Origin: Cyclobacteriaceae bacterium
GTDB lineage: Bacteria > Bacteroidota > Bacteroidia > Cytophagales > Cyclobacteriaceae
DNA: 64,000 nucleotides
Direction of reading: 5' to 3'
Assembly: GCA_016787725.1 (NCBI GenBank)
Contig: JAEUTZ010000002.1
Location: 241,143-305,142 of the forward strand
Position 1 is the first letter of the stretch, and each line of letters starts with the position of its first letter. The translations under genes were made by a program, and so were the position numbers. Below are positions 35,879 through 64,000 of this stretch, piece by piece. The notes under the pieces are model-generated. The model was not told the DNA's origin. It saw only the letters and a list, made by a program, of their open reading frames with translations, and made no database searches.

Positions 35879-35906
35879 CCACTCATTTATAATATGTAAG
35901 GAATGC

Positions 35907-48089: not shown

Positions 48090-48183
48090 GCAATTAATTT
48101 TGTAAATCAAATTTACTGTTTTTTACTCATTATTATCTTTATAAACCTTTACTAACAACTATTGATAAACTAATATTTCTTTC

Positions 48184-48243
48184 GTCCCTACGGGACTTAT
48201 GTGTGTTATATTTAGTGCAACCGGTATGTCGTCCCTATGGAAC
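48184..48243. repeat. REP-like palindromic repeat
   Basis: GTCCCTACGGGAC (48184-48196) is a perfect GTCCC/GGGAC hairpin with a TAC loop; a second, imperfect copy GTCCCTATGGAAC lies at 48231-48243 after ACCGGTATGTC. The motif CGTCCCTACGGGAC is one I associate with REP-like elements scattered in Bacteroidetes genomes. It lies in a ~345-bp gene-free stretch (48090-48435) between two toxin-antitoxin modules; nothing else is recognised there. Confidence 0.6.
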
Positions 48244-48435
48244 TCCATACCTTTTTTAGTTAATTCTTTCTATAAGAATCAATTATCCTTTTTAGGTTGC
48301 TACTGTGTCCTCCAGCGATTTGTGCATAAGCAGTGGTCGAAATTCAAAACGCAACATTGATAATGCATTAATCATATTCGTAATGAGGAGGAGCATCATA
48401 AACACGTTCGGTTTTTGGAGCGCTGATCCCTTCCC

Positions 48436-48591
48436 TCACTTTTTGGGTCTCAACTTGTTCGCATTTTTTTTAAAATACTCAATCTCTTGTTGTGGAGTCA
48501 TGCCTTCAATCTCTTTTGAAATTTCATCTCTCCTTTTCCTCATGAAAGCAACTGCATCAAAAGTCTTCTTTGTCTTTGGCTCTGTTTTCAT
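48436..48591 (-). CDS. Small antitoxin-like partner of PIN toxin
   Basis: A 51-residue protein (MKTEPKTKKTFDAVAFMRKRRDEI ... EGMTPQQEIEYFKKNA) whose ATG overlaps the PIN gene stop by one base (TAATG). The form, with FDAVxFMRxxRDEISKExEGMTxxE, is common directly after PIN-domain genes in Bacteroidetes, where it is taken as the antitoxin. Confidence 0.7.
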   Translation of the reverse strand: MKTEPKTKKTFDAVAFMRKRRDEISKEIEGMTPQQEIEYFKKNANKLRPKK

Positions 48592-48946
48592 TACTCTAAT
48601 ATTTCTCTTGGTGTTCTTATTTCTAAAACCCGATGTCCGTTTTTAATATTAACTGAGTTGTAACCTCTAATTCTTGTGATGTTTACAATATGCTTAAAGT
48701 TCCAACTTACCAAAATATCTGCGTTAACAAGTGTCGCCAGAGCAATATGCCGGCAGTCCGTTCTGCTTGATTTTCCAACAACCTCTTCTTTAATATATTC
48801 TTCTCCAAGTTGAATTGAGTCAACCGTTTGGGCAACATACTCAATTTGAGCCGTTGGAATTGATTTGTAAAATGTAAGTACTTCTTCAGGCGCTCCAATG
48901 AGTTCAGTCGAATAACTGAAGTGTCAATATAGATTCGTTGAACCAT
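48591..48946 (-). pseudogene. PIN-domain ribonuclease toxin with internal deletion
   Basis: The start MVQRIYIDTSVI is a typical PIN beginning with the first catalytic Asp. The sequence then jumps, in another frame, to ELIGAPEEVLTFYKS ... GKSSRTDCRHIALATLVNADILVSWNFKH, which holds the later catalytic Asp residues, and ends EIRTPREILE before TAA (48593-48591). The part normally between SVI and ELIGAP (roughly 40-50 residues in relatives) is missing, so the gene has an internal deletion that also shifts the frame. The product would not be an active ribonuclease. Confidence 0.85.
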
Positions 48947-49000
48947 CCTTAAATTTAGCTCTTTTTGATCACTCGCTTAACTCTTTAAAGGGCACGCACC

Positions 49001-51307
49001 TTACGTTTTGGTAATGGCTTCATCCAAATTATAAATTGTATGTACTACCTGCATCAAGGCTGCCAACGACACTACATCGCTGATGGTTGCGTGCGGATAC
49101 TCGCCTGCCTGCACAAACGTTGCTGCCTTGTCGGGATTTTGTGTAAATCCTAGTTTCTCGGCTTCATAGTAATTCATCAACACCGTAAGTTCTTCGGGCC
49201 GGGGCTTGCGGCATACGATGGCCTGAAAAGCTTTCTCTATTTTTTGTTGGGGTTCAGTTGATTCCTGCATCAGCCGTTCGGCAAACACGCGGGCAGCTTC
49301 GAGGATCAGCGGCTCATTCAACAAGACCAGCGCCTGCAGTGGCGTGTTGGTGGTCATCCGGTTTACTTCGCACTGATCGCGGTTGCTGGCATCAAATACC
49401 AACATGCCCGGTGGTGGCACGGTGCGTTTAATGAACGAGTACAGGCCCCTGCGGTACAACTTGTCGCCATGGTCTTGTACGTAGCGCGCCAGGATGCCCC
49501 GGCCCGAAGTGGATGATTCCCAGATGCCTTTGGGTTGATATACTTTTACACTCGGCCCACCAATTTCCGGTACCAGCAACCCGCTGCTGGCCAGCGTAAG
49601 ATCGCGCACCCCTTCGGCAGTTAAGCGCACGCGCGGACTATAGGACAATAATACATCATCCGGATCCAGGGCTGATTTCTCTTTTGAGACTGCTGAAGAT
49701 TGCCGGTACGTTGCCGACATGACGATTTGTTTGACGAGGCGTTTCACGTCCCACCCGTGGTCGCGAAAGTCAACGGCCAGCCAATCGAGCAGTTCGGGGT
49801 GTGAGGGTAACTCGCCTTGCATCCCAAAATCGCCCGAGGTTTTCACCAACCCCCGACCAAAGAACTCCTGCCACAGGCGGTTGACAAAGACCCGGGCCGT
49901 GAGTGGATTCTTTTTATCGAAGAGCCACTTCGCCAACCCCAGCCGGTTGTTGCCATAGATTGTAGAGTCGTAAGGCAGAATGTCGGGGGGCAACCCGATG
50001 TCCACCTGTTCACCATGGGCATCGTACACGCCACGGGTAAGTACATACGTGGGGCGTTTCCAGGTGGAATCCTTCATCACCATCACTTCCACGGGCGTGG
50101 TGTCGCGCTTGTTGATGAAGGTGAGGATGCGCTCCACTTCGGCTGAGGTGATTTTGATTTTGGGCGGATCGGCCAGGGAGGCCAGCGTGATGTCGCCCAC
50201 CAGCCCTTTCTCGGGTACCTGATTGAAGAAGGCAAAGGTGCGGTAATAGTCTCTTTGCGAGATGGGGTCGTACTTATGATCGTGGCAATGGGCACACTCG
50301 AACGTAAGGGCCAGAAAAGCTTTCGCAAACGTATTGGTGCGATCGGTAACGTACTCGATGCGGTACTCTTCATCAATCACGCCACCCTCTTGCGTGATTT
50401 TATGATTGCGGTTAAAGCCGGTGGCCAGCAATTGCTCTTTGGTAGGATTTGGCAACAGATCACCCGCTACCTGCCAGGTGACAAACTGTTCGTACGAATA
50501 ATTCTGATTGAAGGCATGAATCACCCAGTCGCGCCACGGCCACATGGTACGCAGGCCATCGTCCTGGTAGCCGTGTGAGTCGGCATAGCGGGCTACGTCC
50601 ATCCAATACAAGGCCATGCGTTCGCCATACTGCGGTTGTGCGAGGAGATGGTCCACCATTTTTTCGTAGGCTGCTTCAGAAGGGTTATTAAGAAATTGGT
50701 TTTGAAGTTCGATGGAAGGTGGCAGGCCGGTGAGGTCGAGGCTGAGGCGTTTGAGAAGTCGTTCTTTATCTGCTTCGGCATTGGGTGCAAGCTTTGCTGC
50801 CTCCATCCGCGCCAGCGTGAAATGATCAATTTCATTCTGCGGCCACGATTCGTTTTCGATGACGGGCAGCGCTGCCCTGCGCGGTGGAATAAAGGCCCAA
50901 TGAGGTTTGAACACCGCACCTTGCTCAATCCATTTTTTGATCAGCTGAATTTCTGTCGCTGTCAACGCCAGGTTCGATTCCGGTGGGGGCATTTGTACCG
51001 CGGTATCGGTGGACGCAATCCGGAGGTACACTTCCGACTGATCGGGACGGCCGGGAACAATGGCGTGTGCGTTGGGATTATCCTTTAGGGAGGCCAGGGC
51101 GCCTTCGCGGGTATCCAATCGCAGGTTTGATTTGCGTTGGTTAGCATCGGGGCCATGACATTTGAAACAGCGGTCGGATAAAATCGGGCGGATGTGAAGA
51201 TTAAAATCCACCGAGTCGAGCCGGGAGAGCGCGGATTGTTTTGACCCGCATCCCGTAAGGAAAGCGGCTGCAGACAACAGGGTGATGGCGAGTATGGGTA
51301 GACGCAT
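49001..51307 (-). CDS. DUF1549/DUF1553 protein with planctomycete cytochrome-c domain
   Basis: I start at [20 protein letters not shown] (768 residues), a lipoprotein signal; the frame runs 45 bp further upstream. Residues ~30-130 hold the heme motif CFKCH in [23 protein letters not shown] (PSCyt1). DUF1549 follows ([42 protein letters not shown], split by helices) and then DUF1553 ([27 protein letters not shown]). It is the usual first gene of a DUF1553-DUF1501 pair. A degradative role on sulfated or complex glycans is often suggested, without proof. Confidence 0.9.
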
Positions 51308-51426
51308 GGGCAGACACTTAAAAGTGCGGATTTTCCGGCAGTTTTGAAACAACCATAGGCTAAGTAGCCAGTGCGATTCAGAAGCACACGGTTAAACTCT
51401 TTGTGCCTTCCGGTGTTTAAGAGATA

Positions 51427-51888
51427 ATGAAAATCTACACCCTCCAACGCACGCAGTTTTTACCAATTTCCATGGCTGAAGCATGGGACTTCTTCTCCAC
51501 CCCACGGAACCTTTCGAAAATCACACCCGAACACATGGGTTTTAACATTCTTTACGTAAGTGGTGGTGAGAAAACCTATGCCGGTCAGATTATCCGCTAC
51601 CACGTACAGATTTTGCCTGGAATCAAGGTGCATTGGGTAACCGAAATTACACATGTGCAGGAGCCGGAGTATTTTGTTGACGAACAGCGGTTTGGTCCGT
51701 ATGCGTTGTGGCACCATCAGCATCGTTTTAAGGCGGTGGCCGGAGGTGTTGAAATGACTGATGAAGTAAACTATGCCATTCCGGTAGGGTTTTTAGGCCG
51801 CCTGGCGCACTGGCTTTTTGTGGGCCGCGAGGTTAATCGTATTTTTGAACATCGTTTCACTGTTTTGGAACGCTATTTTAAAAAGTAA
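51427..51888 (+). CDS. SRPBCC-family protein
   Basis: The 153-residue protein has the START/SRPBCC ligand-cavity pattern (LQRTQFLPISMAEAWDFFSTPRNLSKITPEHMGF; VEMTDEVNYAIP), often annotated as cell-division-inhibitor-like. These folds bind hydrophobic ligands. It lies 11 bp before crtZ, so it is probably in the carotenoid operon; binding or handling of a carotenoid or isoprenoid is inference only. Confidence 0.85.
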   Translation: MKIYTLQRTQFLPISMAEAWDFFSTPRNLSKITPEHMGFNILYVSGGEKTYAGQIIRYHVQILPGIKVHWVTEITHVQEPEYFVDEQRFGPYALWHHQHRFKAVAGGVEMTDEVNYAIPVGFLGRLAHWLFVGREVNRIFEHRFTVLERYFKK

Positions 51889-51899
51889 CCGGGTTGCCG

Positions 51900-52394
51900 A
51901 TGGATTGGAAAGTGATCTTGATTTGTGGGTTAATTACCACCGGTACGTTCTTGTTTTGGGAATTTGTAGCCTGGTTTACCCACAAGTATGTGATGCACGG
52001 GTTTTTGTGGACCTGGCATAAATCGCACCACACAGTGCACGACCATACAGTGGAAAAAAATGATTTGTTTGCTGTGGTGTTCAGCATTCCTTCCATCGCC
52101 TTGTTTATTATTTCCACTTCGGTGTATCCGAGCCCGTATTTGTTTGCGGTGGCGTTGGGGATTTTCTGTTACGGCCTCTTCTACCTGATTTTCCACGACA
52201 TCATCGTACACCAGCGGCTGAAGTGGCGGCCGGAAAAGCGCAGCAAGTATTTGCAACGCATGATTCATGCCCATTACATTCACCATGCCAAACACACCAA
52301 AGACGGGTGCGAGGCTTTTGGATTTCTCTATGCTCCGAAGAAGTATGAGCCCGGCAAGTTTGTGTTTAAGGCCAAACGCCAGGAAACACAATAG
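51900..52394 (+). CDS. crtZ: Beta-carotene hydroxylase CrtZ
   Basis: I use ATG 51900 (MDWKVILICGLI, 164 residues); TTG 51894 is an alternative. The membrane di-iron hydroxylase has all histidine clusters of CrtZ: HKYVMHG, HKSHH, HDIIVHQR and HYIHHAKH. It hydroxylates beta-ionone rings, turning beta-carotene into zeaxanthin. It lies between the SRPBCC gene and the lycopene cyclase gene (24-bp gap) in one operon. Zeaxanthin could serve as membrane pigment and, in some rhodopsins, as light-harvesting antenna. Confidence 0.94.
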   Translation: MDWKVILICGLITTGTFLFWEFVAWFTHKYVMHGFLWTWHKSHHTVHDHTVEKNDLFAVVFSIPSIALFIISTSVYPSPYLFAVALGIFCYGLFYLIFHDIIVHQRLKWRPEKRSKYLQRMIHAHYIHHAKHTKDGCEAFGFLYAPKKYEPGKFVFKAKRQETQ

Positions 52395-52418
52395 GGTTTA
52401 CGATTAAGCCTGCATTCC

Positions 52419-53150
52419 GTGAACGAAAAATACCTTTACCTCGCCATTAATTTCTTTTCGATTCTATTTCCGTTCCTGTTCAGTTTTTATCCCAAATCAA
52501 ATTTCTCGAAGAAGTGGCGGTATCTGTGGCTGGCCATTTTGGTGCCGGGCCTCTTCTTTATTGTATGGGATGAATGGTTTACGCGGCTGGGGGTGTGGGG
52601 TTTTAACCCGCAGTACCTGACGGGCACCTATCTTTTCTCGTTGCCACTGGAAGAAGTGTTGTTTTTTGTTTGCATACCGTATGCCTGTGTATTTACCTAC
52701 GAGGCGGTGAACTACCTGATTCGCTGGCGGCTAAACCAGAAATACACCAACCTGATTACCGATTTGCTGAGCAGTGGGCTTTTGCTGACGGCCGCCATTC
52801 ACTACGACCGGTGGTATACTGCAGTCACGTTTATGCTGCTGGCGATTTTCCTTTTGTTGCACCGGTGGGTATGGAAGACGGACGTTGCCGGCAAGTTTTA
52901 CGTGGCCTATCTATTTATCCTGATCCCCTTCTTTATTGTGAATGGAATTTTGACCGGCACGGGCATTGACGATCCGGTGGTGTGGTATAACGATGCGGAG
53001 AACCTGGGCATCCGCATGGGTACCATTCCGTTTGAGGACACGTTTTACGGAATGCTGTTGCTGATGATGAACGTGACGCTGTTCGAATTTCTGCAAAAGA
53101 GAAAGGCTGGCGATCTTCACCGCGAAGGTGCGAGGGTGCTAAGGCGTTAG
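52419..53150 (+). CDS. Lycopene cyclase (CrtYc-CrtYd fusion type)
   Basis: The 243-residue membrane protein starts at GTG and consists of two lycopene cyclase domains in tandem. The first has SLPLEEVLFFVCIPYACVFTYE, the second TIPFEDTFYGMLLLMM, matching the conserved PxE(E/D)xxF core of heterodimeric CrtYc/CrtYd cyclases fused in one chain. It would convert lycopene to beta-carotene, the substrate of both CrtZ and Blh. It is the last gene of the operon; a 6-bp GC-rich hairpin overlaps its stop codon. Confidence 0.92.
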   Translation: MNEKYLYLAINFFSILFPFLFSFYPKSNFSKKWRYLWLAILVPGLFFIVWDEWFTRLGVWGFNPQYLTGTYLFSLPLEEVLFFVCIPYACVFTYEAVNYLIRWRLNQKYTNLITDLLSSGLLLTAAIHYDRWYTAVTFMLLAIFLLLHRWVWKTDVAGKFYVAYLFILIPFFIVNGILTGTGIDDPVVWYNDAENLGIRMGTIPFEDTFYGMLLLMMNVTLFEFLQKRKAGDLHREGARVLRR

Positions 53151-53166
53151 GGTCGATATGGACCCT
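53149..53166 (+). terminator. Possible terminator hairpin after lycopene cyclase
   Basis: AGGGTC (53149-53154) pairs with GACCCT (53161-53166) around a 6-base loop, overlapping the stop codon. Only short T runs follow (TTGCGGTTTTGCG), so termination is uncertain. Confidence 0.3.
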
Positions 53167-53211
53167 TGCGGTTTTGCGTCCCTGCGGTGATCGTTCTCGC
53201 TTAGAATTTAA

Positions 53212-53241
53212 GCAAAAAGAAAAAGGGGCTTGTTGCCCCTT
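53212..53241 (-). terminator. Strong intrinsic terminator after the Lys-rich protein gene
   Basis: AAGGGGC (53223-53229) and GCCCCTT (53235-53241) form a 7-bp stem with a 5-base loop; read on the minus strand it is followed by a T-rich run (complement of 53212-53224). It begins 26 bp after the stop of the leftward small gene. It may also work in the other direction for the crtY operon. Confidence 0.75.
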
Positions 53242-53266
53242 CCGCTAAGTACGTGTCGGTATGAAT

Positions 53267-53509
53267 TTAAGCCGTTGCCAGTTCGGGTTTGGCTTTCTTT
53301 TCCTTCTTCACTTTTACATTCTTGATCTTCTTCAGCTCCTTTTTCATTTGCGTGGCCACCACGGTAGCCAGGCGTTTGGCTGATTTTTCGATCAGTTTGT
53401 TGGCCTTCTTTTTGGACTTGGTAATGCCCAGGGCTTGTACGGTTTGATGGAGGGAATCCATTAAGAGCAATCTGATTTCTTTCTTTCCTTTGAGCACTAA
53501 TTTTTCCAT
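53267..53509 (-). CDS. Small lysine-rich protein
   Basis: An 80-residue, very basic protein (MEKLVLKGKKEIRLLLMDSLHQTV..., tail KKELKKIKNVKVKKEKKAKPE). It resembles small Bacteroidetes basic proteins of unknown function; histone-like nucleic-acid binding is possible but only inferred from charge. It has its own strong intrinsic terminator, which supports it being expressed. Confidence 0.65.
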   Translation of the reverse strand: MEKLVLKGKKEIRLLLMDSLHQTVQALGITKSKKKANKLIEKSAKRLATVVATQMKKELKKIKNVKVKKEKKAKPELATA

Positions 53510-53689
53510 AATGTCTGATGTTTAGGAGTACAAAATATCAGGTTACCCGGGCATTACCAAGCGGTTAATAAAACTTAACATTGGAAGTGAATTTTCCTTT
53601 AATTTGGGTCAAATTGTGGGTTTTTGAGGGCTTAAGCCCAGGCTGTACCAGATCCCTGGAAGATCGATTTTTAAGGTTTGTTTGGATTC

Positions 53690-53800
53690 ATGAGCAACCT
53701 CCTGCTGTGGATGGGGCTTTTGCTGTTCTTTCAGCCAGTAATCAGTCACTGGGTCGGTTACCTGTATTTCTTACGGGGCTTTTCAGCCGTATTATTGTAG
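53690..53800 (+). CDS. Possible 36-residue hydrophobic peptide
   Basis: MSNLLLWMGLLLFFQPVISHWVGYLYFLRGF-type sequence, one predicted membrane helix, with a weak AAGG 15 bp upstream. No homology is known to me and the frame could be chance. Reported only because it lies in an otherwise empty stretch. Confidence 0.15.
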   Translation: MSNLLLWMGLLLFFQPVISHWVGYLYFLRGFSAVLL

Positions 53801-53841
53801 CGGGTCCGGATTACTTCATACCGGGTGGTTTGTGAAATTAC

Positions 53842-53951
53842 GCGGTGTCTTGTGTAAACACTGACGGTGCTTAGTATAAATACTCACGGTGCTTACTATA
53901 AACCTCAACGGTGCTTACTGTAAACCTGAACGGTGCTCACTATAAACTGAT
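53842..53951. repeat. Five 22-bp imperfect tandem repeats
   Basis: Units start at 53842, 53864, 53886, 53908 and 53930. The shared core is ACGGTGCTTACTATAAAC followed by four variable bases; units 2-4 are closest to each other. There are no spacers between units, so this is not a CRISPR array. The array lies about 200 bp before a tyrosine recombinase gene and shares TATAAAC with the motif at 54084-54112, so recombinase accessory sites or an iteron-like binding array are possible. Confidence 0.8.
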
Positions 53952-54083
53952 TTGGAGCTGTAATTGGGACACTGCCCAGAGAAGTGTGTACGTGCGGGAA
54001 AGTGACTGACAACCTGTGTAGAGGGCGATTTTTTGGTGGCTCTCGAAGAAATAACAGGATTTCCCATTTTCAATATATCCGAT

Positions 54084-54112
54084 TATAAACGTTTATAAAC
54101 GTAAGTAAACGT
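54084..54112. repeat. Helically phased TAAACGT triplet
   Basis: TAAACGT occurs at 54086-54092, 54096-54102 and 54106-54112, a 10-bp period equal to about one DNA turn, with AAACGTTT palindromes at the ends of the cluster. It is 44-70 bp before the recombinase ATG, so it may be the gene's own operator or a recombinase arm site. Confidence 0.6.
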
Positions 54113-54155
54113 TTATTATACGACTGCGGTCTTCCAACCGTCTAGTATTGGCACC

Positions 54156-55304
54156 ATGATTCCCATCGTCACCCTGCACCCCCTGCTGCATCGCAACCAG
54201 TTGTGTGTGGCGATCCGCTGGCAAAACAGTGCGGTTGTAGAACGGGTGGTGCGCAGTTTTCCCGGACGGTTGTTCAGCATCACCCACCGGTGCTGGTACA
54301 TTCCCCATGCCGAAGACAAGCTACAGGAATTGAAAGTCCGACTTGCCCCGCATTGCCACGTGCACCTGCACGACCACTTGCAGCAAGACCTGCCGCACCC
54401 GATAATGGCCCCACCGGCTCCCGAGGTTACCCTGCCCCCCGACTACCTGGAAACGCTCCTCCGCATGCGGTACAGCCCCATGACCATCGAAAATTATGTC
54501 TCGCAGTTCAAGGCCTTTCTCACCTACTTATTGCCGGACGATGTGCAAGCCATTACCGAAGAACGCATCAAGGCCTACCTGCTGTACCTGATCGAGGAGC
54601 GGAAGGTTTCCATTTCCACCCAAAACCAGGCGATCAACGCTATTAAATTTTATCTGGAACGTGTACTGCGGGGAGAACGCAAAGAATATTATATCGAGCG
54701 CCCGATCAAAGACTGGAAACTACCGACTGTGCTCAGCGAAACAGAAGTGCGGGATTTGCTGCTGAATACGCACAACCTGAAGCACCGGTGTATGCTGTTC
54801 TTTTTATACTCGGCCGGGTTGCGCATCAGTGAACTGCTGAATCTGAAACCGGGGGATATCGATGCCAACCGGGGTTTAATCTATGTGCGGGCCGGTAAGG
54901 GCAAGAAGGACCGGGTAACCTTGTTGAGCAAAGTAGCCTATTTATATATGGAAGAATATATAAAGCAATACCAACCTAAAACATGGCTGTTTGAAGGCCG
55001 TACCGGAGAGGGGTATAGCAAGCGGAGTGTCAACCTGATTATCAAACGCAGCGCGCAACTGGCAAGCATCACCAAGCGGATCAGCGCCCACACCCTACGG
55101 CATAGCTTTGCCACCCATTTACTGGAACGCGGCACGGACCTGCGATACATTCAAACCCTGTTGGGGCACGAAAGCTCCCTTACTACGGAACGGTACGCCC
55201 ATGTAACGAAAAAGGGTTTTGAAATGCTGGTTAGTCCGTTGGATAATTTAGCCCGGACGCTTATTTTAGAAGAGAATAACAAAAATTGGAATAAGGATAT
55301 ATAG
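54156..55304 (+). CDS. Tyrosine-type site-specific recombinase
   Basis: The 382-residue protein has an extra ~90-residue N-terminal domain (RSFPGRLFSITHRCWYIPHAEDKL), a SAM-like core-binding domain (~95-180) and the catalytic domain with Arg223 (YSAGLRISELLNL), Lys248, His312-x-x-Arg315 (HTLRHSFATHLL), His338 (LLGHES) and nucleophile Tyr347 (TTERYAHV). All catalytic residues are present. It resembles XerC/D and Bacteroidetes mobile-element integrases; the extra IntI-specific segment of integron integrases is not evident. It stands at the boundary between core genes and the A+T-rich defence-like operon, with repeats on its left and hairpin sites on its right. Confidence 0.92.
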   Translation: MIPIVTLHPLLHRNQLCVAIRWQNSAVVERVVRSFPGRLFSITHRCWYIPHAEDKLQELKVRLAPHCHVHLHDHLQQDLPHPIMAPPAPEVTLPPDYLETLLRMRYSPMTIENYVSQFKAFLTYLLPDDVQAITEERIKAYLLYLIEERKVSISTQNQAINAIKFYLERVLRGERKEYYIERPIKDWKLPTVLSETEVRDLLLNTHNLKHRCMLFFLYSAGLRISELLNLKPGDIDANRGLIYVRAGKGKKDRVTLLSKVAYLYMEEYIKQYQPKTWLFEGRTGEGYSKRSVNLIIKRSAQLASITKRISAHTLRHSFATHLLERGTDLRYIQTLLGHESSLTTERYAHVTKKGFEMLVSPLDNLARTLILEENNKNWNKDI

Positions 55305-55316
55305 GAAATACCTATA
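55300..55316. repeat. Inverted repeat at the recombinase stop codon
   Basis: TATAGG (55300-55305) and CCTATA (55311-55316) are exact inverted copies around a 5-base spacer and include the stop codon. CACAAACGTTGG follows at once, sharing AAACGTT with the triplet upstream of the gene. It could be a recombinase core site. Confidence 0.4.
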
Positions 55317-55653
55317 CACAAACGTTGGTAGCAATAGGGCCCGGACAAATTTGTGTTTCAAAAAACGGACGACACTTTACTACAAAGACTTCCACAGGGA
55401 CAGGTGAACGGCTTCGCAGACAACTTGGACTTTGTAAAATTAAACGGGGACTGACTAAAAAGTAATACAGCCGACCCTTCGCATTTTTAAGAAGATTGTG
55501 CTTCGATTCACCCCACGCATTTGGCACATGCCATAGCCGCGCAAACCCACCGCGACACCAAAGCTATGGCAAGAGCCAAATCCCACCCGCGACCGAATTA
55601 ATATTTTGGAAAAGCTCAATATTTGACGAAATTGTCCAAACTTAATAGTCCAC
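55305..55653. other. 349-bp non-coding stretch between recombinase and defence operon
   Basis: No ORF with support. Starts with CTATACACAAACGTTGGTAG, which recalls sequences I have seen after cassette genes in Bacteroidetes (memory, not verified). Contains the 63-nt imperfect hairpin described separately. No exact -33/-7 promoter for the XRE gene is evident. Confidence 0.5.
55519..55581. repeat. 63-nt imperfect hairpin, attC-like in form
   Basis: ATTTGGC-ACA-TGCCATAGC (55519-55537) pairs with GCTATGGCA-AGA-GCCAAAT (55563-55581): 7-bp outer and 9-bp inner stems separated by a 3+3 unpaired internal loop. The 25-nt loop holds a further CGCG/CGCG pairing. The two-box stem with an internal bubble is like a folded integron attC site, but the usual GTTRRRY/RYYYAAC boxes are absent. 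It lies 73 bp before the XRE gene. Confidence 0.6.
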
Positions 55654-55953
55654 ATGAAAGAACAAGGTTTTGGGGATTTTATTCGCAGAATGAGGGAAGA
55701 AAAGAACCTCCCGCTTAGAAAAGTAGCTGCATATCTGGACATCGACACTTCAACATTAAGTAAAGTAGAGCGTGGAGAAAGACCCGCATCACCTGACTAC
55801 TTAAAGCCATTATCAATAATTCTCGAAACTGACTTAAAGGTTATTCAGACAACTTTTATAGCAGACAAAATAAATAAGGACTTTGGTGGCCTTGAACATT
55901 TAACTGAAGGACTGAAAGAAGCAGAGAAACAACTAAAAAGAAAAAAGAAGTAA
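55654..55953 (+). CDS. XRE-family helix-turn-helix regulator
   Basis: The 99-residue protein has an XRE domain at ~5-65 (FIRRMREEKNLPLRKVAAYLDIDTSTLSKVERGERPASPDYL) and a short charged C-terminal helix. Its stop overlaps the next ATG by one base (TAATG), so it is the first gene of the defence-like operon and the likely autoregulator, as with control proteins of restriction systems. The DNA target cannot be read, though the hairpin 73 bp upstream is a candidate. Confidence 0.9.
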   Translation: MKEQGFGDFIRRMREEKNLPLRKVAAYLDIDTSTLSKVERGERPASPDYLKPLSIILETDLKVIQTTFIADKINKDFGGLEHLTEGLKEAEKQLKRKKK

Positions 55954-58900
55954 TGTCAACTAAGTTTTTTACTAACCGTGAAGAAAATAGCTTGCTCAAG
56001 AAATTCGAGGGGGTATTTTCAAATATTGAAAGCATCAGACACTTTGATGCGCTTGTTGGCTACTTCCGTACATCTGGTTACTTCAAAGTAAGGGCTTTCC
56101 TAGACAAGATTCCAAGAATAAGAATACTAGTAGGAATTAATGTTGACCAGTTAATAAAGAAATATCACGACAAAGGGCAACTCTACTTAGACAATCCAAG
56201 AGAGACAAAGGAAAACTTCCTTGAAGAAATTATTGATAACATCGAAAAGGCTGACTACGATGAAATAACCGAAAAAGGTATAATTCAATTTATTGAAGAC
56301 CTGATTAGCGGAAAAATTGAATTAAGGGCACACCCTAAAAAGAAAATTCATGCTAAAGTATATATTTTTAGGCCGGTGCCATTTAATGAACACGCACCAT
56401 GCGAAGTAATAACAGGTTCCTCTAATTTGACAGATTCTGGACTTGGTGCTAATCCCGAATCTAACTATGAGTTCAACGTAAGCTTGCGGGACTATCAAGA
56501 CGTAAAATTTGCAACAGAGGAGTTTGAAATTTTATGGAATGAATCTATTCCAATACTTCATGCAGAAGCAGAGGCAATTAGAAAGAAAACCTATTTGCGT
56601 GACGACTTCACTCCTTTTGAGTTATATATCAAAATGCTGATTGAGTATTTCGGCAAACGGGTTGAATACGACCCATACAACATTGATTTATTACTTCCAG
56701 ACAAATTCATGCGTTTGAAATACCAATCTGACGCAGCAAACCAGGGCTATGCTATTATGATGAAGCACAATGGCTTCATTTTGGCCGATGTTGTTGGTTT
56801 AGGTAAGACCATTATTGCCTGCATGGTGATTAAGAAATTCATCTATGAAAACGGAACTCACTCCAAAATTCTAATCGTAGTTCCTCCGGCATTAGAAGCA
56901 AACTGGCGAAGAACAACAGAAGATTTTCAAATTAAGAATCATTTTGAATTTATTACGCTGGGTAGTTTGCATAAAATTCTGAATGAGGATAACTACAGTT
57001 ATTCGAACGCAGACAAATTCGATTTAATAGTTGTAGATGAATCGCATAAGTTCAGGAACGACTACACTGAAATGTATTTGGCGCTACAGGAAATTTGTAA
57101 GAAACCAAGAAGTCGGCCATCCGAAAATGGCGACACAAGAAAAAAGGTAATCCTAATTTCTGCCACGCCATTAAACAACAGACCGCAGGACATTGAAAAT
57201 CAACTCTACCTGTTTCAAGATAAAAGGAATAGCACGCTAGAGAACATCCGAAACCTTCAAGACTATTTCAAACCGCTAAATGAGCAATACAAAAAACTTG
57301 CTGCTGAAAAAACACTCAACATCAAAAAACTTAAATCACTTTTCCAAAAATTGAGGGATGATGTAGTTGAACCTTTAGTGATTCGAAGAACAAGAACAGA
57401 CATTGAGAAGAATAAAGAATATTTAGAGGACATGAAAAGTCAGGGAATAATCTTCCCAAAGGTTGATGACCCTATTTCACTATTTTATGAATTAGATGGA
57501 AAACTGGCAACTCTGTTTTACGAAACCGTTTCATTGATTACAGGTTTAGATGAATACGGAAACGAAACAGACGGTTTGGGTTACTACCGTTACCGAGCTA
57601 TTGAGTTTTTGGCCAATGAAGAAGACAAGAAGATTTACGGAAACGTAAAATCAATCTCTGGTCGCCTAAGTGCAATCATGAAAACGCTTTTAGTTAAGCG
57701 GTTAGAAAGTAGCTTTTTTGCTTTTACTCAATCCATCAATCGCTTTCAACGAGCTATTGACAACATGATAGAAATGTTTGAGAATGACAGAGTATTTGTA
57801 GCTCCCGACTTAGACATTAATAAGCTTTTAGAAGAAGGTTTAAGCTATGACCAGATTGAGGCGAAGATTAACGAGAAAGGCGGCAATAATAAAGAATTCA
57901 AAAAATCTGCTTTTGAGAAAAAGTTTATTGCTCTTTTAAAATCAGATAAAGAGAAGGTGGATGAATTGGCTTTGAGATGGAGTAAGGTCAAAAAAGACCC
58001 TAAGTTGGAAGCTTTCAGCGAGAAATTAAAAGCAGAGTTATTCAAAAGTAAAAAGCACAACCCAAGTGGTCAACTTGTTATCTTTTCCGAATCTAAAGAA
58101 ACCGCAGAACAACTTTCAGAACAAATAAGTAAGGACTTCGAGTTTCGTGTTCTGACAGTTAGTGCAGAAAACCGAAAATCTGTCGAAAACATTTTAAGGG
58201 AAAACTTTGATGCCAATTTCGAAGAAGAAAAATGGAAATATGATTACGACATCATTATCACTACCGAAGTTTTGGCAGAAGGTATCAACTTGCACCGAAG
58301 CAACTTGATTGTAAATTATGATGTACCATGGAATGCTACACGTCTAATGCAGCGCATTGGTCGTGTAAACAGGATTGGTTCAAGGGCTGAACAAATTTTC
58401 GTTTATAACTTCTACCCTTCAGCTCATGGTGATGAGCAAATTAAGTTGGTAAATAATGCGTTACGAAAACTTCAATCGTTTCATACCGCCTTCGGTGAGG
58501 ACAACAAAATATTTTCTTTGCTTGAAGAGAAGGGAGATGGTGCATTGTTCGGAAACAAAATTCAAAAAGAAGAAAGCGAGATTCTGAATTATCTGAACGA
58601 GTTAAGAGATTTCAAAAAGAAGCATCCAAAACGCTTTGCAGAAATTGCCAAGATTCCTAACAAAGCTAGATGCGGCAGAAAAACAAACGAAGGTCACCAA
58701 CTTACTTTGATGGAAGCCGAAACAGGTGAAATCAACTATCCATTGCAAAACACTTCTCTCACATACCTCAAAAGTGAAAACCATCCAGGAATCTTCTGTT
58801 TGATAACGCCTGATTACAATATCATTGAATTGAATTTTCTTCAAGCAGTTAAAGTCTATAAAGCAGAAGAAGCCGAAAAAGCGGTTCCGCTACATTCGCA

Positions 58901-59312
58901 GCATTATGAACAGACGGTTAAGGGGCTTGACTATTTTAAATCAGAAAAGAATCAGGAGAATGTTCAGACCATTTCCCGAAAAAATTTAAGCCCTGCCGAA
59001 AACAAAGCAATCACCAATATAAATGCTATCATCAAAGTGGCACCAACCGAACAAAAAAGAATGGCATTGCAACGGGCACTTGAATTGATTAAAAAAGGAA
59101 CTTATGGTTCAAAGGGCTTACCAAAATCAATCAATGACTTTTTTCTGGCTAATGTGAAACTATTGAAAGAGCCTTCAAAATTTGTTGAACAGCTTTTTAT
59201 TGACCTTTTAGATAGCTATGACCTTTCATCAAATGCCGAAGCAACTGCGGAAAAATGGACGGGGCAAGGCATTGTGAACCCCAAAATTGTTTTAACTCAA
59301 AGCTTCGTATAA
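55953..59312 (+). CDS. PLD-nuclease / SNF2 helicase fusion protein
   Basis: The 1119-residue protein has an N-terminal phospholipase D-like domain (~20-200) with one HxK motif (His133, Lys135 in KIHAKVYIF) and Asn158 in TGSSNLTDSG. An SNF2-type helicase follows: GLGKT at 282-286, DESH at 362-365, LISATPLNNRPQDI, and motif VI QRIGRVNRIGS near residue 805. The C-terminal ~250 residues are unassigned. With a single HKD motif it would need to dimerise for nuclease action. In defence systems such proteins track along and cut foreign DNA. The neighbours (XRE, methyltransferase, ATPase) support this role. A+T-rich compared with the core genes. Confidence 0.92.
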   Translation: MSTKFFTNREENSLLKKFEGVFSNIESIRHFDALVGYFRTSGYFKVRAFLDKIPRIRILVGINVDQLIKKYHDKGQLYLDNPRETKENFLEEIIDNIEKADYDEITEKGIIQFIEDLISGKIELRAHPKKKIHAKVYIFRPVPFNEHAPCEVITGSSNLTDSGLGANPESNYEFNVSLRDYQDVKFATEEFEILWNESIPILHAEAEAIRKKTYLRDDFTPFELYIKMLIEYFGKRVEYDPYNIDLLLPDKFMRLKYQSDAANQGYAIMMKHNGFILADVVGLGKTIIACMVIKKFIYENGTHSKILIVVPPALEANWRRTTEDFQIKNHFEFITLGSLHKILNEDNYSYSNADKFDLIVVDESHKFRNDYTEMYLALQEICKKPRSRPSENGDTRKKVILISATPLNNRPQDIENQLYLFQDKRNSTLENIRNLQDYFKPLNEQYKKLAAEKTLNIKKLKSLFQKLRDDVVEPLVIRRTRTDIEKNKEYLEDMKSQGIIFPKVDDPISLFYELDGKLATLFYETVSLITGLDEYGNETDGLGYYRYRAIEFLANEEDKKIYGNVKSISGRLSAIMKTLLVKRLESSFFAFTQSINRFQRAIDNMIEMFENDRVFVAPDLDINKLLEEGLSYDQIEAKINEKGGNNKEFKKSAFEKKFIALLKSDKEKVDELALRWSKVKKDPKLEAFSEKLKAELFKSKKHNPSGQLVIFSESKETAEQLSEQISKDFEFRVLTVSAENRKSVENILRENFDANFEEEKWKYDYDIIITTEVLAEGINLHRSNLIVNYDVPWNATRLMQRIGRVNRIGSRAEQIFVYNFYPSAHGDEQIKLVNNALRKLQSFHTAFGEDNKIFSLLEEKGDGALFGNKIQKEESEILNYLNELRDFKKKHPKRFAEIAKIPNKARCGRKTNEGHQLTLMEAETGEINYPLQNTSLTYLKSENHPGIFCLITPDYNIIELNFLQAVKVYKAEEAEKAVPLHSQHYEQTVKGLDYFKSEKNQENVQTISRKNLSPAENKAITNINAIIKVAPTEQKRMALQRALELIKKGTYGSKGLPKSINDFFLANVKLLKEPSKFVEQLFIDLLDSYDLSSNAEATAEKWTGQGIVNPKIVLTQSFV

Positions 59313-59316
59313 CGCA

Positions 59317-62300
59317 ATGGCAAACAGAACCCAAATACAAACCGCATTACAAAAGCCTTACGACAGGTTGCTTTTTGGAAAAGAAGTTTTAAGTCCGGTT
59401 TTCGGTTCATGCTTTACACTTACCACATCAGCCGTTCACGCTTCGCTGCAACCCAATAAATCGGAGCAAAACGTAATTCAATCTGTTTCCATTTACGGTA
59501 ATATTAATCTTGAGGATGGAACTGAAATCACTTGCTATGAAATAAATCTGCAACCAACGGTTCGAATCGAGCACAGTAAAGTCGCAATTCAGCATTACGT
59601 TAGGAAGTTGCTGACTGCTGGACAAATTGCCTTAGTAAATTTCATTGCACCACAAAACAAAAAAGTTTGGCGTTTGACACTGGTGGCCAAGGACAGCCAA
59701 CTCACAGAGCAAGGTGTTAAGGAGAAAACTACCCACGCAAAACGATACACATACCTGTTAGGTCCATCGGAAACGTGTAAAACGGCTGCTGAACGGTTCG
59801 AAACGCTCAGCACCGAAAAGCAAATAACTTTTCAGGCTTTAGTTAATGCCTTTTCGGTTGAAAAACTCAGCAGGGCATTCTTTGACGAATACACCTTGCA
59901 CTACCAAAAGTTTTGCGATTACTTACAAGACTCCAATTTCAGGAAATCAGTTTTTAAAATCACGATTCCCCCAAACGCCACCAAAGAAGATAAAGACAAA
60001 GCATGCAAACCAATTCGGGACTTTGTAAAGAAACTCTTAGGACGGATTGTATTCCTTTATTTTGTTCAGAAAAAAGGCTGGCTAGGTGCAAGTGATACCA
60101 ACTACAAAGACGGTCTAACGGATTTCATTAAAAAGCTATTCACTCAATCGGGGGGAAACGACACATTTTATCCCAACTGGCTCACAATTCTATTTTTTGA
60201 AACATTGAACAAAGAAAGAACTAATGACGAGTTTAGCATGCCCGATGGAAAAAAAGTAAAAGTACCTTTCTTAAATGGTGGTTTATTTGACAAAGAAGAT
60301 TATGATGAAGCTATTCTGACAATTCCTGCAAAACTATTTCACCAACCCGATTTTGAAGATACGATACTTACCGAAAAAAATTGGAGCAATGCCCGCGGCT
60401 TTCTTGATTTTTTAGATGCTTTCAATTTTACAGTGTTCGAAGACAGTCCTGACGACCACACTGTAGCTGTTGACCCTGAAATGCTCGGGCATATTTTTGA
60501 GAATCTATTGGAAGACAACAAAGACAAAGGGACTTTTTATACACCAAAGGAAATTGTGCATTACATGTGTCAGGAAAGTTTGACGGAATACCTTTCCACA
60601 CAACTAAAACTTGATAACGAAAAATTAAAAAGTGACTTATCCTTTTTAGTAAAACACAAGGACATTTCTGAATCAATAAGGCCAAGATTAAAAGAGATAG
60701 ATAATAAACTAGAGATAGTAAAAATATGTGACCCCGCAATCGGCTCTGGAGCATTCCCAATGGGTCTGTTACAAGAAATACACAGCATTAAAGAAGTAAT
60801 TGCATACGAATTAAGTCAGCCCTGGAAACCAGCTGAGGTAAAGGAAAACATTATCCAAAATAGTGTATACGGGGTTGACATAGAAAAAGGAGCCGTTGAC
60901 ATTGCTCGATTGCGTTTCTGGTTGAGTTTAGTGGTGGACGAAGAAAAGCCCAGAGCATTGCCAAACCTTGATTACAAAATTGTAGTAGGCGACAGCTTAA
61001 TAAGCAAATTTGAAGGAGAGATAATTGAAATTGATTGGGAACGAAAAAGTAGTGTTGGTAAGGCAGATACTTTTGTGCAAAATATTCAACGATTATTGAA
61101 AGAAATAGCTGAAAAGCAAAAGAAATTCTTTAAGCCCGATAATAAAGACAAGAGAAAACAGCAAGCCGAAATCCGTAACCTAAAATTAGAATTGCTAATT
61201 AACCAGTTGTCATTTAACAAAGAGAAGTTCTTGGCTAGCAATGTACAGAAAGGAGGCTTTGCTCCTACGGCTAATGATTTGCGATACAACGAGGATTTGA
61301 GACAAAAAAAGAAGGAATTTGAAAGGCATCTCACTAAACTGCAAAAACTAAAACAAAACAAAGACGAACCCTTTGAGCATTTCGATTGGAAATTGGATTT
61401 TCCGGAAGTATTGAATCCATATTTGGTAAATGGGAATGAGGGTTTTGATATTGTTATCGGAAATCCCCCTTACATCTCATACTACGGAAATACAGGTTCG
61501 GATTTAACTGCTGAAGAAAAGAAATACGTAGTAAAGTCATTTGACTCAGTATCAAAGGAGAGCGATAGAATCAACAGCATGAATTTATTTTCGGAGAAGG
61601 GAATTAAACTCCTTAAATCTAAAGGCAATCTTGCATTTATTGTAAATAAGACAATGGGTGTACTCCCATCTTACAATCATTATCGATCATACATAATTGA
61701 CAATGTTGAATTCAAATACGTAATCACCGATTTAATACCGTTTCAAGCAATTGTAGATTGCTTGATTTTTAGCATTGAAAATCAAAAGCCAAAGCCTGAG
61801 TACTATTTCAAGTTTTACAGGGGGGGCATTGAATCGTATTCATTAGAAAATATTTCTGTATTTAAAAAGAATATAAAACTTGAATTTCACATCCCTAAAA
61901 ATGATGGATTACTTGACGTTATTGACGCTGCACCTTCAGTATTATCAGATATTTTAACCATTAACAGAGGCGTAAATATTGGAGGTTGTTTCGACATCTT
62001 CTTAAGCGACCAAAAATCAACGACTAGGCACTTCAAATACTTATCGGGGACAAAATGCGTCAAGCCTTATTTCTATGAGTGGGCCAAATCTGACGGCTAC
62101 ATGATTTTTGACGATAAGAAGGAAAAGGAACTTCGTTCCCAAGGAAAGACAATTGCTTTAGGAAACCACCAACGTTATTTGCAACCAAGGTTATTTATAC
62201 CAGAATCAGCCCAAACTATCATGGCTGCGTATTCCGAAGAGCAGATATATTCAGCCTATGGCTTATTAGTTGGCACTTCTGAATTAGGTAAGGAATACCT

Positions 62301-62793
62301 TAAATATGCATGTGGTCTTTTAAACTCACAGCTTATTACGTTTTACTCAATTCAAAGAGAAATTCTAAGAAAAGGTAACAAAGCAACTCCTCACGTAGGA
62401 GTAAAAGGCCTAAATGGATTACCTATTTACAAAGACAAGTCTGATGTTTTACTGATATCTAGAATTGTTGACAGTATAACTATGCTAAAATATTATTCTT
62501 CAGAGTTTGCTGATTCAATCCACATATCCTCATATTTTGAGAGACTAATTAATGCAATAATTTATGAGATATATTTTCCAAATGCTATACAAAAAGCTAA
62601 GTGTGAAATTAAAAGACACCTTCAGTCCTTCCCAGCTATCTCAAAGTTTCCTGACGAATCCACAAAAGATATTAATTTAAAAACTGTCAAGGATTTCTAT
62701 AAAGAAATATCGTCATCACAACATCCTGTAAATTCAGCCCTATTAAAGCTATTAAATGTCGATGAAGTAAAAATCATTGAGTCAAAAGAATGA
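59317..62793 (+). CDS. Large Eco57I-like N6-adenine DNA methyltransferase
   Basis: The 1158-residue protein carries methyltransferase motif X region KGTFYTPKEIVHYMCQESL, SAM-binding motif I DPAIGSGAFPMGLL (Asp472) and catalytic motif IV NPPY (716-719, DIVIGNPPYISYYG). The C-terminal ~400 residues look like a target-recognition domain (INRGVNIGGCFDIFL, GNHQRYLQPRLFIP). The N-terminal ~400 residues are unassigned, with no clear PD-(D/E)xK nuclease. The layout resembles type IIG and PglX-like enzymes. It probably methylates adenine to mark self DNA. It starts 4 bp after the helicase gene, and its stop overlaps the ATPase start. Confidence 0.93.
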   Translation: MANRTQIQTALQKPYDRLLFGKEVLSPVFGSCFTLTTSAVHASLQPNKSEQNVIQSVSIYGNINLEDGTEITCYEINLQPTVRIEHSKVAIQHYVRKLLTAGQIALVNFIAPQNKKVWRLTLVAKDSQLTEQGVKEKTTHAKRYTYLLGPSETCKTAAERFETLSTEKQITFQALVNAFSVEKLSRAFFDEYTLHYQKFCDYLQDSNFRKSVFKITIPPNATKEDKDKACKPIRDFVKKLLGRIVFLYFVQKKGWLGASDTNYKDGLTDFIKKLFTQSGGNDTFYPNWLTILFFETLNKERTNDEFSMPDGKKVKVPFLNGGLFDKEDYDEAILTIPAKLFHQPDFEDTILTEKNWSNARGFLDFLDAFNFTVFEDSPDDHTVAVDPEMLGHIFENLLEDNKDKGTFYTPKEIVHYMCQESLTEYLSTQLKLDNEKLKSDLSFLVKHKDISESIRPRLKEIDNKLEIVKICDPAIGSGAFPMGLLQEIHSIKEVIAYELSQPWKPAEVKENIIQNSVYGVDIEKGAVDIARLRFWLSLVVDEEKPRALPNLDYKIVVGDSLISKFEGEIIEIDWERKSSVGKADTFVQNIQRLLKEIAEKQKKFFKPDNKDKRKQQAEIRNLKLELLINQLSFNKEKFLASNVQKGGFAPTANDLRYNEDLRQKKKEFERHLTKLQKLKQNKDEPFEHFDWKLDFPEVLNPYLVNGNEGFDIVIGNPPYISYYGNTGSDLTAEEKKYVVKSFDSVSKESDRINSMNLFSEKGIKLLKSKGNLAFIVNKTMGVLPSYNHYRSYIIDNVEFKYVITDLIPFQAIVDCLIFSIENQKPKPEYYFKFYRGGIESYSLENISVFKKNIKLEFHIPKNDGLLDVIDAAPSVLSDILTINRGVNIGGCFDIFLSDQKSTTRHFKYLSGTKCVKPYFYEWAKSDGYMIFDDKKEKELRSQGKTIALGNHQRYLQPRLFIPESAQTIMAAYSEEQIYSAYGLLVGTSELGKEYLKYACGLLNSQLITFYSIQREILRKGNKATPHVGVKGLNGLPIYKDKSDVLLISRIVDSITMLKYYSSEFADSIHISSYFERLINAIIYEIYFPNAIQKAKCEIKRHLQSFPAISKFPDESTKDINLKTVKDFYKEISSSQHPVNSALLKLLNVDEVKIIESKE

Positions 62794-64000
62794 AAAGAGT
62801 TACCAAAATAGAATTAAGTAACTATCGTGCATTCTTTGATGAATATGAGATTGTACTTCCGCTAGGAGAAAACCTTTTGGTCTACGGAGAGAATGGAAGT
62901 GGCAAAAGTTCTCTTTTCAAAGCACTCAACAATTACTTAACAAGTTCAAGGGATTTAGGGCTTCAGTTCACTAGAAATCACTATCGACCACCTGCCGATG
63001 TTGGGGGAATAACGCTAACTTTTATGGACGCTGACCCTGTGACACATTTACCAATAGCAGGAACCGAACAGCCATTGCAATTTGGTAGTGCAGCTTCTAC
63101 GCATAATGTCAACTATGTGATGGATGCTGAGCTGATAAAAGGCTTTCTCGATTATCGAAGTTTACTGGATGTCTATTACAACAATGAACCGAGGCCGAAC
63201 TTGTTTAAACTAATTGTCTTAAAAATACTGGGAAAGCAATATAATACCGCAAGAACATTTCGCTATGGAGAGAAATGGACTCAGCTTCAAAACGACCTTA
63301 CAACAAATTCCTATACTAGCCGTGATTGGGCACATCGAAATGCTTTCGCAGAATTGCCAACGTATGAGGCCGAGTTAAGACAAACATTACGAAACATATT
63401 CAGTTACTTGAACAATGTTCTATTAAGGGATTACTTTTCTGAGTTAAATATTCAATTAAGGTTCGAATTACAGCCAATGACATTCAATTATGGCAGAGGG
63501 AAATGGGAATGGAATACCACTGCGGATTTGAGATTGAGTGTAATACAAAACGGTTCACCTATACCTAATGACTATAATGACTTCTTGAACGAAGCAAGAT
63601 TATCTGCATTTGCAGTTTGCATTTACCTAGCAGCCCTAAAAACCAATCCTGAATTATTTGACTACAAAATTCTTTTCCTTGACGATGTTTTTGTTGGTCT
63701 GGATACAAGTAATCGCTTTCCAATTTTGAACATATTAAAAGAGGAGTTTAGAGAGCACCAAATATTTGTCACGACCTACGACCGCCACCTTTTTGAGCTA
63801 GCAAAACGGAAATTTGAAGTTGAAATTCCTGGCAAATGGAGAACAGCAGAATTCTATGTTGACCATGACCAAGTTGGTGCACAACCATTTGAAAAGCCTA
63901 TTATAGTTGTTGGCGAAACACACTACGAGAAAGCAGTAAAATTTCTTAATGACAGAGAAAAACCTGATTATCCTGCAGCCTCAAATTATTTCAGAAAGGC
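62790..64000 (+). CDS. SMC/RecF-like AAA ATPase, 3'-partial
   Basis: The open frame starts at ATG 62790, overlapping the methyltransferase stop by 4 bp (ATGA), and runs off the window (403 codons seen). N-terminal Walker A GENGSGKSS (Lys39) follows KIELSNYRAF, the RecF/SMC-type opening; the signature-like ARLSAFAVCIYLAALK and Walker B ILFLDDVFVGLD lie near residues 270-305, then TTYDRHLFELA. No long coiled coil separates the two halves. ATPases of this type act as sensors or loaders in several defence systems. The tail after ~residue 360 is a separate unassigned region. Confidence 0.88.
   Translation, partial: MKRVTKIELSNYRAFFDEYEIVLPLGENLLVYGENGSGKSSLFKALNNYLTSSRDLGLQFTRNHYRPPADVGGITLTFMDADPVTHLPIAGTEQPLQFGSAASTHNVNYVMDAELIKGFLDYRSLLDVYYNNEPRPNLFKLIVLKILGKQYNTARTFRYGEKWTQLQNDLTTNSYTSRDWAHRNAFAELPTYEAELRQTLRNIFSYLNNVLLRDYFSELNIQLRFELQPMTFNYGRGKWEWNTTADLRLSVIQNGSPIPNDYNDFLNEARLSAFAVCIYLAALKTNPELFDYKILFLDDVFVGLDTSNRFPILNILKEEFREHQIFVTTYDRHLFELAKRKFEVEIPGKWRTAEFYVDHDQVGAQPFEKPIIVVGETHYEKAVKFLNDREKPDYPAASNYFRK

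Follow-up and report, generated by a model that had tools for sequence, protein, structure and literature searches.

The four-gene operon and its surroundings

The window analysed here, a 64,000-nucleotide stretch of the genome of a Cyclobacteriaceae bacterium (contig JAEUTZ010000002.1, henceforth C4, positions 241,143 to 305,142), ends in a compact operon that encodes an XRE-type regulator, a SNF2-type helicase fused to a PLD nuclease domain, an N6-adenine DNA methyltransferase (MTase) and a Rad50/SMC-head-type ATPase. The operon lies downstream of a tyrosine recombinase, and we consider here whether it could be a restriction-modification-like (R-M-like) anti-phage system that occupies the first cassette position in a chromosomal integron. 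The features concerned are as follows (window coordinates, strand, description):

54156..55304, +, tyrosine recombinase, integron-integrase-like, 382 aa, without the IntI-specific segment (Pfam Phage_integrase)
55302..55323, +, attI-like segment overlapping and extending past the integrase stop codon (sequence repeated ahead of a further cassette where contig C3 of this genome begins, L155/L161)
55324..55332, +, cassette start core GTTGGTAGC, with the junction between G and TT (placed by homology breakpoints)
55519..55581, +, leader hairpin, outer stem / ACAT // AAGA / outer stem (inverted repeat, 19-nt arms)
55623..55639, +, likely XRE operator TTGAC-N6-GTCCAA, just upstream of the XRE start (pattern conserved)
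55654..55953, +, XRE/HTH_3 regulator, 99 aa (Pfam HTH_3; PADLOC HTH_VI, Control_protein)
55953..59312, +, PLD nuclease-SNF2 helicase, 1119 aa (Pfam PLDc_2 110-195, SNF2-rel_dom 257-326, Helicase_C 692-809)
59317..62793, +, Eco57I-type N6-adenine DNA MTase with a TaqI_C-type target-recognition region (TRD), 1158 aa (Pfam Eco57I, TaqI_C)
62790..63998, +, Rad50/SMC-head-type ABC ATPase, truncated by the contig end after 403 aa (Pfam SMC_N)

A first-pass annotation, made from the sequence alone, had assigned the four genes to these families, had described them as joined by a 1-bp overlap, a 4-bp gap and a 4-bp overlap, and had called the operon A+T-rich; Pfam matches, open reading frame coordinates and base composition agree with it on each count. 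The GC content is 0.337-0.399 per 1-kb step from position 56001 on, compared with 0.430-0.537 across the seven steps of 49001-56000, although further A+T-rich steps exist in the window (0.356 at 48001-49000 and 0.380 at 35001-36000). The adjoining recombinase that the annotation named is indeed present, its integron type having been missed. Since the right edge of the window is the end of contig C4 (305142), where the ATPase gene is truncated, nothing can be read further rightward in this genome.

The operon as a likely integron cassette

In Flavobacterium caeni (locus L058), the operon is bracketed by direct-repeat attC sites with cores at 1004 and 10534, 9,530 bp apart, and its four genes are the only same-strand frames of at least 80 aa that lie wholly between them. 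The inverse core, GCTGCCAAC, is the reverse complement of the cassette's own start, GTTGGCAGC, at 9/9 bases, and the bottom strand of the attC folds at -26 kcal/mol compared with -15.2 ± 2.9 kcal/mol for 200 shuffles (z -3.7). Judged by these sequence features, the four-gene operon of F. caeni fills one 9,530-bp integron cassette with attC-type sites at both ends. The 3' end is common to two further loci, L120, where a different start, GTTGTAAGC, is accompanied by a correspondingly changed inverse core, GCTTACAAC, in a cassette of ~13.3 kb, and L062, where the inverse core matches the start at 8/9 bases and the cassette measures ~10.2 kb. In Prolixibacter denitrificans (L084) the contig opens with the end of an integrase (52 residues, 65% identical), followed in order by an attI-like stretch and the XRE, helicase, MTase and ATPase genes. 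A layout of start core, ~310-360 bp leader with hairpin, and XRE gene is common to the window, L058, L060, L062, L084 and L120. The F. caeni array that carries the operon also holds a chloramphenicol-acetyltransferase-family gene (Pfam CAT, L058 12884-13507).

The junction in the window was located by homology from both sides. On the attI side, homology to the C3 copy covers 55302-55334 and ends within a few bases of the start core; on the cassette side, homology to G306/L177 begins exactly at 55324, and the two sides meet at G|TTGG. The spacing of start core, hairpin and XRE gene resembles that in L058, L062 and L120. No attC was found within 55000-64000 by the strict finder, and the inverse core predicted for the right-end attC of this cassette is GCTACCAAC. 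The window operon is thus likely, if not proven, to be cassette 1 of an integron. The second attI-like copy in the same genome, at the start of contig C3 (L161, 1-800), has no integrase frame to be seen beside it, and the cassette that follows it has an inverse core that matches its own start (by eye); the C3 array is either an orphan or split by the assembly.

An integron-type recombinase without the IntI segment

The window recombinase aligns to the integron-integrase profile TIGR02249 in two pieces, 7-179 and 243-315, and scores below the cut-off; a canonical IntI used as positive control (G324:C5) aligns to profile positions 1-313 at 355.7 bits. The part that is skipped, profile 180-242, is the IntI-specific additional domain near patch III. 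Alignment with the solved IntI4 (2a3v) likewise falls into two pieces with chain 183-248 skipped, and no insertion at this segment was seen in the aligned window protein and nine relatives. The available excerpt of one source describes the additional domain as a defining characteristic of IntI and as necessary for recombination (PMC9668308). The alignments indicate that the recombinase is of the integron type, a relative of integrases that lie beside attC arrays, yet without the segment held to define IntI. Integrases of the window type occur at E <= 1e-40 in 18 of 29 genomes, the window's own included, and several of their genes lie within ~1 kb of a contig end and point toward that end. In Prolixibacter denitrificans, a canonical IntI-type integrase (G324:C5:110033-110971, L185) occurs in addition to the window-like one whose end adjoins the operon.

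Downstream of a homologous integrase in L168, 10 attC-like sites (124-165 nt) form an array, with one further match outside it. In nine of these ten, the one at attI included, the inverse core is exactly complementary to the nine bases that open its own cassette. Both inverse cores of L164 match their own start, at 9/9 and 8/9 bases, as do one of three in L171 and one of the two that could be tested in L058. With a stricter finder, none of 211 comparisons with other starts from these loci (both strands counted) gave 9/9, and shuffled window sequence gave 0.2 hits per 64 kb and strand. The exact inverse cores of L168 together with these null controls show that the best arrays follow textbook attC logic. 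The finder is strict: among the ten loci, L062, L165, L172 and L084 gave no site, L161 and L170 gave one spurious site each, and both the attC-like repeats of L058 that are visible by blastn and the C3 attC read by eye were missed. The L168 array behind this same kind of integrase holds, at 312-2083, a NotI-family restriction enzyme and a D12-class MTase, which are likely another defence cargo.

Recurrence of the gene set

A search across the phylum (296 genomes, E <= 1e-30) matched the helicase in 47, one of which is the window's own. Gene partners were identified by blastp in 80 loci of named genomes, the best 80 of 580 confirmed loci, to which all counts below refer; another 35 stretches (L022-L056), from 35 of the 47 helicase-matching genomes, partly overlap these and stand outside the counts. 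An MTase gene lies downstream of the helicase in 78 loci, the remaining two being L086, which ends just past the helicase at a contig end, and L121, where none was found in the 2.3 kb that follow. The XRE gene touches the helicase in 15, and in 24 an ATPase gene begins no more than 60 nt from an MTase stop, at offsets of -35 to +4 nt (a count that takes in L122, a 73-aa fragment, and L114, cut by a contig end). All four genes are present in nine loci (L058, L062, L077, L079, L084, L098, L115, L118 and L129), with one extra gene between helicase and MTase in L062 and L098. The neighbourhood survey that the first-pass annotation had proposed thus finds the four-gene set recurring, and its presence in distant genomes argues against chance.

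Judged by record titles, most hosts belong to Bacteroidota; Cyanobacteria, Ignavibacteria, Acidobacteriota and others are represented as well. The slot after the MTase is alternatively filled by a KAP NTPase (L026) or DUF3800 (L042), and the slot between helicase and MTase may hold YhcG PD-(D/E)XK, KilA-N, RhuM, Schlafen AlbA, ORF6N or other genes; YhcG, KilA-N, RhuM, Schlafen AlbA and ORF6N are companions of type I R-M operons. In L037 and L038 the ATPase gene is fragmented while the helicase and MTase frames are still open, as if the ATPase were dispensable there. Helicase matches at E <= 1e-40 number 7 among 72,556 plasmid records (identity up to 43%), two of these loci carrying HTH, helicase and N-6 methylase genes under generic names, and at E <= 1e-20 they number 3 among 50,697 phage records (identity at most 27%); 10 viral contigs also matched.

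Conserved motifs and a replaceable specificity region

The catalytic motifs of the three large proteins are conserved. In the helicase, the PLD residues H133, K135, N158 and E173 are invariant in the alignment of 14 homologues, as are Walker A (G282/G284-K285-T286), D362-E363 and QRxGRxNR at 800-807. In the MTase, whose solved-structure relatives are CamA, M.BseCI and PglX/BrxX, DPAxGSGA (472-479) and NPPY (716-719) are invariant in 12 sequences. The ATPase measures 517-537 aa in six near relatives (L058, L059, L062, L066, L084 and L133), and its Walker A GENGSGKSS and its LDD are invariant in eight sequences, in none of which a C-x-C hook was seen (by eye; the window copy is without its C-terminus). 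Foldseek matched the F. caeni ATPase model best to Rad50, then to SMC heads and PtuA, at template-modelling (TM) scores of 0.2-0.46. These low-scoring matches and the AlphaFold models, which are weak for both the MTase (predicted local distance difference test, pLDDT, 66.0; predicted TM-score, pTM, 0.36) and the F. caeni ATPase (mean pLDDT 66.7, pTM 0.56), were taken as support only. We also considered the MTase N-terminus as a PD-(D/E)XK nuclease in the style of type IIG enzymes and rejected it, as no conserved catalytic lysine was seen by eye in 12 sequences; the PLD domain is for this reason taken as the probable nuclease.

Comparison of the window operon with that of F. caeni gives identities of 90-99% by segment in the helicase and 85-92% in MTase residues 1-450, against 25-30% in MTase residues 761-1158. 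Between L058 and L062, identity is 95% in MTase residues 1-450, 40% after NPPY and 92% in the ATPase. High identity over the first 450 residues with low identity in the C-terminal part is the pattern of TRD exchange in sequence-specific modification systems, and the TRD has been replaced between close relatives with the rest retained. The window ATPase is 34-36% identical to five relatives that are 53-92% identical among themselves. Joint exchange of TRD and ATPase was considered and dropped, since L058 and L062 differ in the TRD yet keep a common ATPase; the ATPase looks rather like a separate exchangeable part, unlinked to the TRD.

A recurrent leader hairpin and a putative operator

The hairpin architecture recurs, with changed stems, in the operon leaders of L058, L060, L062, L083, L084, L115, L120, L125 and L129, and its pattern gave 16 matches compared with 2.3 in block-shuffled sequence. 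The ACAT // AAGA internal loop is fixed and the stems vary freely; the hairpin is found again 3' of the operon in four loci and also precedes an unrelated cassette-like start in the window's genome (copies listed: L058 10206, L062 19373, L084 10068, L120 22432 and L159 12162). An Rfam search of 54000-64000 returned no match, which places the window hairpin in no family at that threshold. Closer to the XRE gene, the pattern TTGAC-N2..8-GTC-N-AA lies upstream in 11 of 16 XRE-bearing loci, the window included, compared with 7 of 4000 random 110-base windows, and TTGAC-N6-GTCCAA is likely the XRE operator over the promoter.

Proposed working of the operon and alternatives

We favour, at a probability of about 0.68, the reading that the genes form a self-regulated, ATP-dependent R-M-like operon directed against phage, and that this operon is cassette 1 of an integron in the chromosome. 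The MTase would shield host DNA by marking adenines within a sequence that its C-terminal TRD determines, and the helicase, probably loaded via the MTase, would translocate on unmarked DNA until its single-motif PLD domain pairs with that of a second copy to form a nuclease that breaks the DNA. Cutting may be gated or strengthened by the Rad50/SMC-like ATPase, the gene for which, where present, overlaps or directly follows that of the MTase, and the XRE protein would repress its own promoter via TTGAC-N6-GTCCAA, so that restriction would set in late when the operon reaches a new host. That the TRD is replaceable on a conserved MTase supports a sequence-specific, R-M-like working.

Several observations weigh against this reading. 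As regards the cassette, the right end in the window lies beyond the assembled contig, 78 loci tested blind for both ends yielded two hits (L058 and L115), near chance level when taken alone, and in that test no exact inverse core was found in L060 or L084. Genome G306 shares the cassette start with the window and has no helicase match, and an 81% copy of the window leader (55329-55590) precedes a different frame on the same contig (G000:C4:68381-68643); the junction by itself therefore does not link the operon with the site. The helicase occurs in only one of 18 other genomes of the same genus (G303), where it lies inside a contig (C10:242540). As regards the function, the PLD motif is without an acidic residue at the usual H-x-K-x4-D/E place (alignment, by eye), the ATPase is exchanged independently of the TRD, and it looks optional, as 56 of the 80 loci, some of them cut by contig ends, yielded no ATPase. 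Finally, what the sequence itself shows is the gene set, the intact motifs, the exchange of the TRD, the conserved operator pattern and the cassette ends in a relative; the defence activity, each biochemical step, phage as the target and present-day mobility of the cassette are inferred.

One alternative is exclusion in the manner of BREX or DISARM, in which methylation marks self and the helicase and ATPase block phage replication without cutting phage DNA. This appears unlikely: the PLD residues H133, K135, N158 and E173, invariant in 14 helicases, argue for cutting, and DUF499 was found in 0/9 operon-bearing genomes, DUF1998 is missing from the window's genome and PglZ lies outside the operon. 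We judge equally unlikely that the operon is an ordinary island beside an unrelated recombinase, its cassette-like junction being a coincidence. The missing right end, the leader copy before another frame and the contig-internal helicase of G303 would all fit such an island, but they have to be set against the cassette ends on both sides in F. caeni, the layout that the window shares with L058, L060, L062, L084 and L120, and the integrase end that again lies just upstream of the operon in L084. Least probable of the three is an abortive system in which the PLD-helicase, released by an ATPase sensor, attacks the cell's own DNA on infection, for although suicide is one option proposed for HKD-SF2 (superfamily 2) helicase plus ABC ATPase systems in the available excerpt of PMC10853773 and the ATPase head resembles PtuA besides Rad50 and SMC, no C-x-C hook was seen by eye in the eight aligned ATPases and the TRD is replaceable, as in self/non-self R-M.

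Beyond the window, the R-M-like cassette reading leads to a broader proposal, for and against which we see the balance as even: that Bacteroidota exchange entire multi-gene defence systems based on DNA modification, each with a regulated promoter of its own and a specificity region that can be replaced, as single giant (9-13 kb) integron cassettes, via an integrase clade without the IntI-defining domain. Integron cassettes are generally promoterless genes, according to the available part of PMC11014356. If the proposal is true, searches that require the IntI domain or short attC spacing would miss such integrons and their defence cargo, and whole defence systems might be exchanged like single resistance genes. 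The rule that the IntI domain is necessary would also become directly testable, given arrays that keep exact attC logic next to integrases in which it is missing. The integron and defence fields would be joined by a recurrent four-gene set with a replaceable TRD, optional partners and a plausible route of spread.

Comparison with known systems

Published systems are described here as far as the available excerpts of the cited sources go. The first-pass annotation had proposed a distinct system, separate from DISARM and BREX; that the genes make up an R-M or modification-defence operon that is neither canonical DISARM nor canonical BREX still stands, and the novelty was overstated. Fusion of a PLD domain to the helicase, which together with the SMC-like ATPase it had read as the sign of a distinct system, already occurs in PADLOC 'HKD+Snf2', BREX-related type 2, CxC/PbeABCD and SauUSI. 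In the profile search that it had suggested, the best PADLOC match of the helicase is the single-protein profile C3a139 'HKD+Snf2' (residues 36-1004, 139 bits), a likeness to a protein profile only, for which we found no paper placing it in a system, and tested defining features of DISARM, BREX, Hma and BREX-related type 2 were not found.

The absence of DUF1998 (DrmB; Pfam MZB), claimed earlier, holds for the window's genome, where no match was found (8 of 14 control genomes match); one of the nine operon-bearing genomes has it, on another contig (G221:C187). As the DrmD-type helicase models also scored below their cut-offs (NF038317, 151.7 vs 610 bits; NF038318, 91 vs 950 bits), membership of DISARM was rejected. 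The earlier claim that the operon is without PglZ was likewise correct. A PglZ domain occurs somewhere in 8/9 operon-bearing genomes, the one match in the window's genome being on another contig (C27:477234, 526-aa frame); in F. caeni it lies on C47, and it is not among the four long same-strand frames of the complete cassette. BrxC was not among the 25 PADLOC matches listed, of 39, for the ATPase, no genome-wide BrxC profile search having been made. Membership of BREX was rejected because PglZ lies outside the operon.

BREX-related type 2 comes near in combining an HKD nuclease fused to a Swi2/Snf2 helicase with an N6-MTase, for which an R-M-like action is proposed, and it is described with a DUF499 ATPase and DUF3780 (PMC12839542). 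Pfam and PADLOC matches show the same helicase and N6-MTase pairing in the window operon, whose ATPase has instead a Rad50-type head and measures ~530 aa in relatives. With DUF499 in 0/9 operon-bearing genomes (1/14 control genomes, Thermotoga maritima, matches), membership was rejected; DUF3780 was also found in 0/9, though no control genome matched either. CxC/PbeABCD combines an HKD-SF2 helicase with an ABC ATPase and sometimes a methylase, and is described with a zinc-hook ATPase, a DndE partner and cytosine methylases (PMC10853773). The window set differs in its adenine-type MTase and in lacking, by eye in eight aligned ATPases, the zinc-hook C-x-C on which this candidate was rejected; PbeC profiles reach no further than residues 1-81 in the L058 ATPase. 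Hma likewise joins helicase, methylase and ATPase, its HmaB being a 5-methylcytosine (m5C) enzyme (PADLOC 2021, PMC8565338), and was rejected because the window MTase is of the Eco57I/TaqI_C N6-adenine class; the best HmaA match to the helicase covers only residues 658-857, and HmaB is absent among the 25 PADLOC matches listed, of 30, for the window MTase and the 20 for that of L058 at E <= 1e-8. The best PADLOC match of the window ATPase is mad3 (E 6e-14, best stretch residues 3-47), which the L077 homologue matches over 4-381 (E 5e-13), so that distant kinship of the ATPases is possible; MADS was set aside, since the matches listed for the helicase (25 of 39) and for the MTase (25 of 30) include no mad model.

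In SauUSI, a PLD-helicase, the PLD domain dimerises, translocation is driven by ATP, and cleavage is stimulated when enzymes meet (PMC7913695). This type IV enzyme has an N-terminal single-motif PLD and an SF2 translocase, as does the window helicase, and carries an SRA reader. To our knowledge, SauUSI is not paired with an MTase. In design it is the closest relative that has been characterised, and type I/ISP R-M stands with it among the nearest known systems. The core architecture, HKD-SNF2 with an N6-MTase and ABC-ATPase partners, is already known from related systems and is not categorically new. Our literature search found neither a name for the four-gene set nor a description of it as a unit (an earlier mention in ABC-ATPase classification work is possible), of such a set carried as one giant integron cassette, or, for Bacteroidota, of integrases that lack the IntI domain and have arrays next to them. 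Integrons as such have been reported in Bacteroidota, in sources available in part. By its title, a 2025 study by Darracq reportedly presents chromosomal integrons as stores of anti-phage genes. Set against that title, the case described here concerns Bacteroidota and a cassette of 9.5 kb that holds four genes, a regulator of their own among them, with an integrase that lacks the IntI domain.

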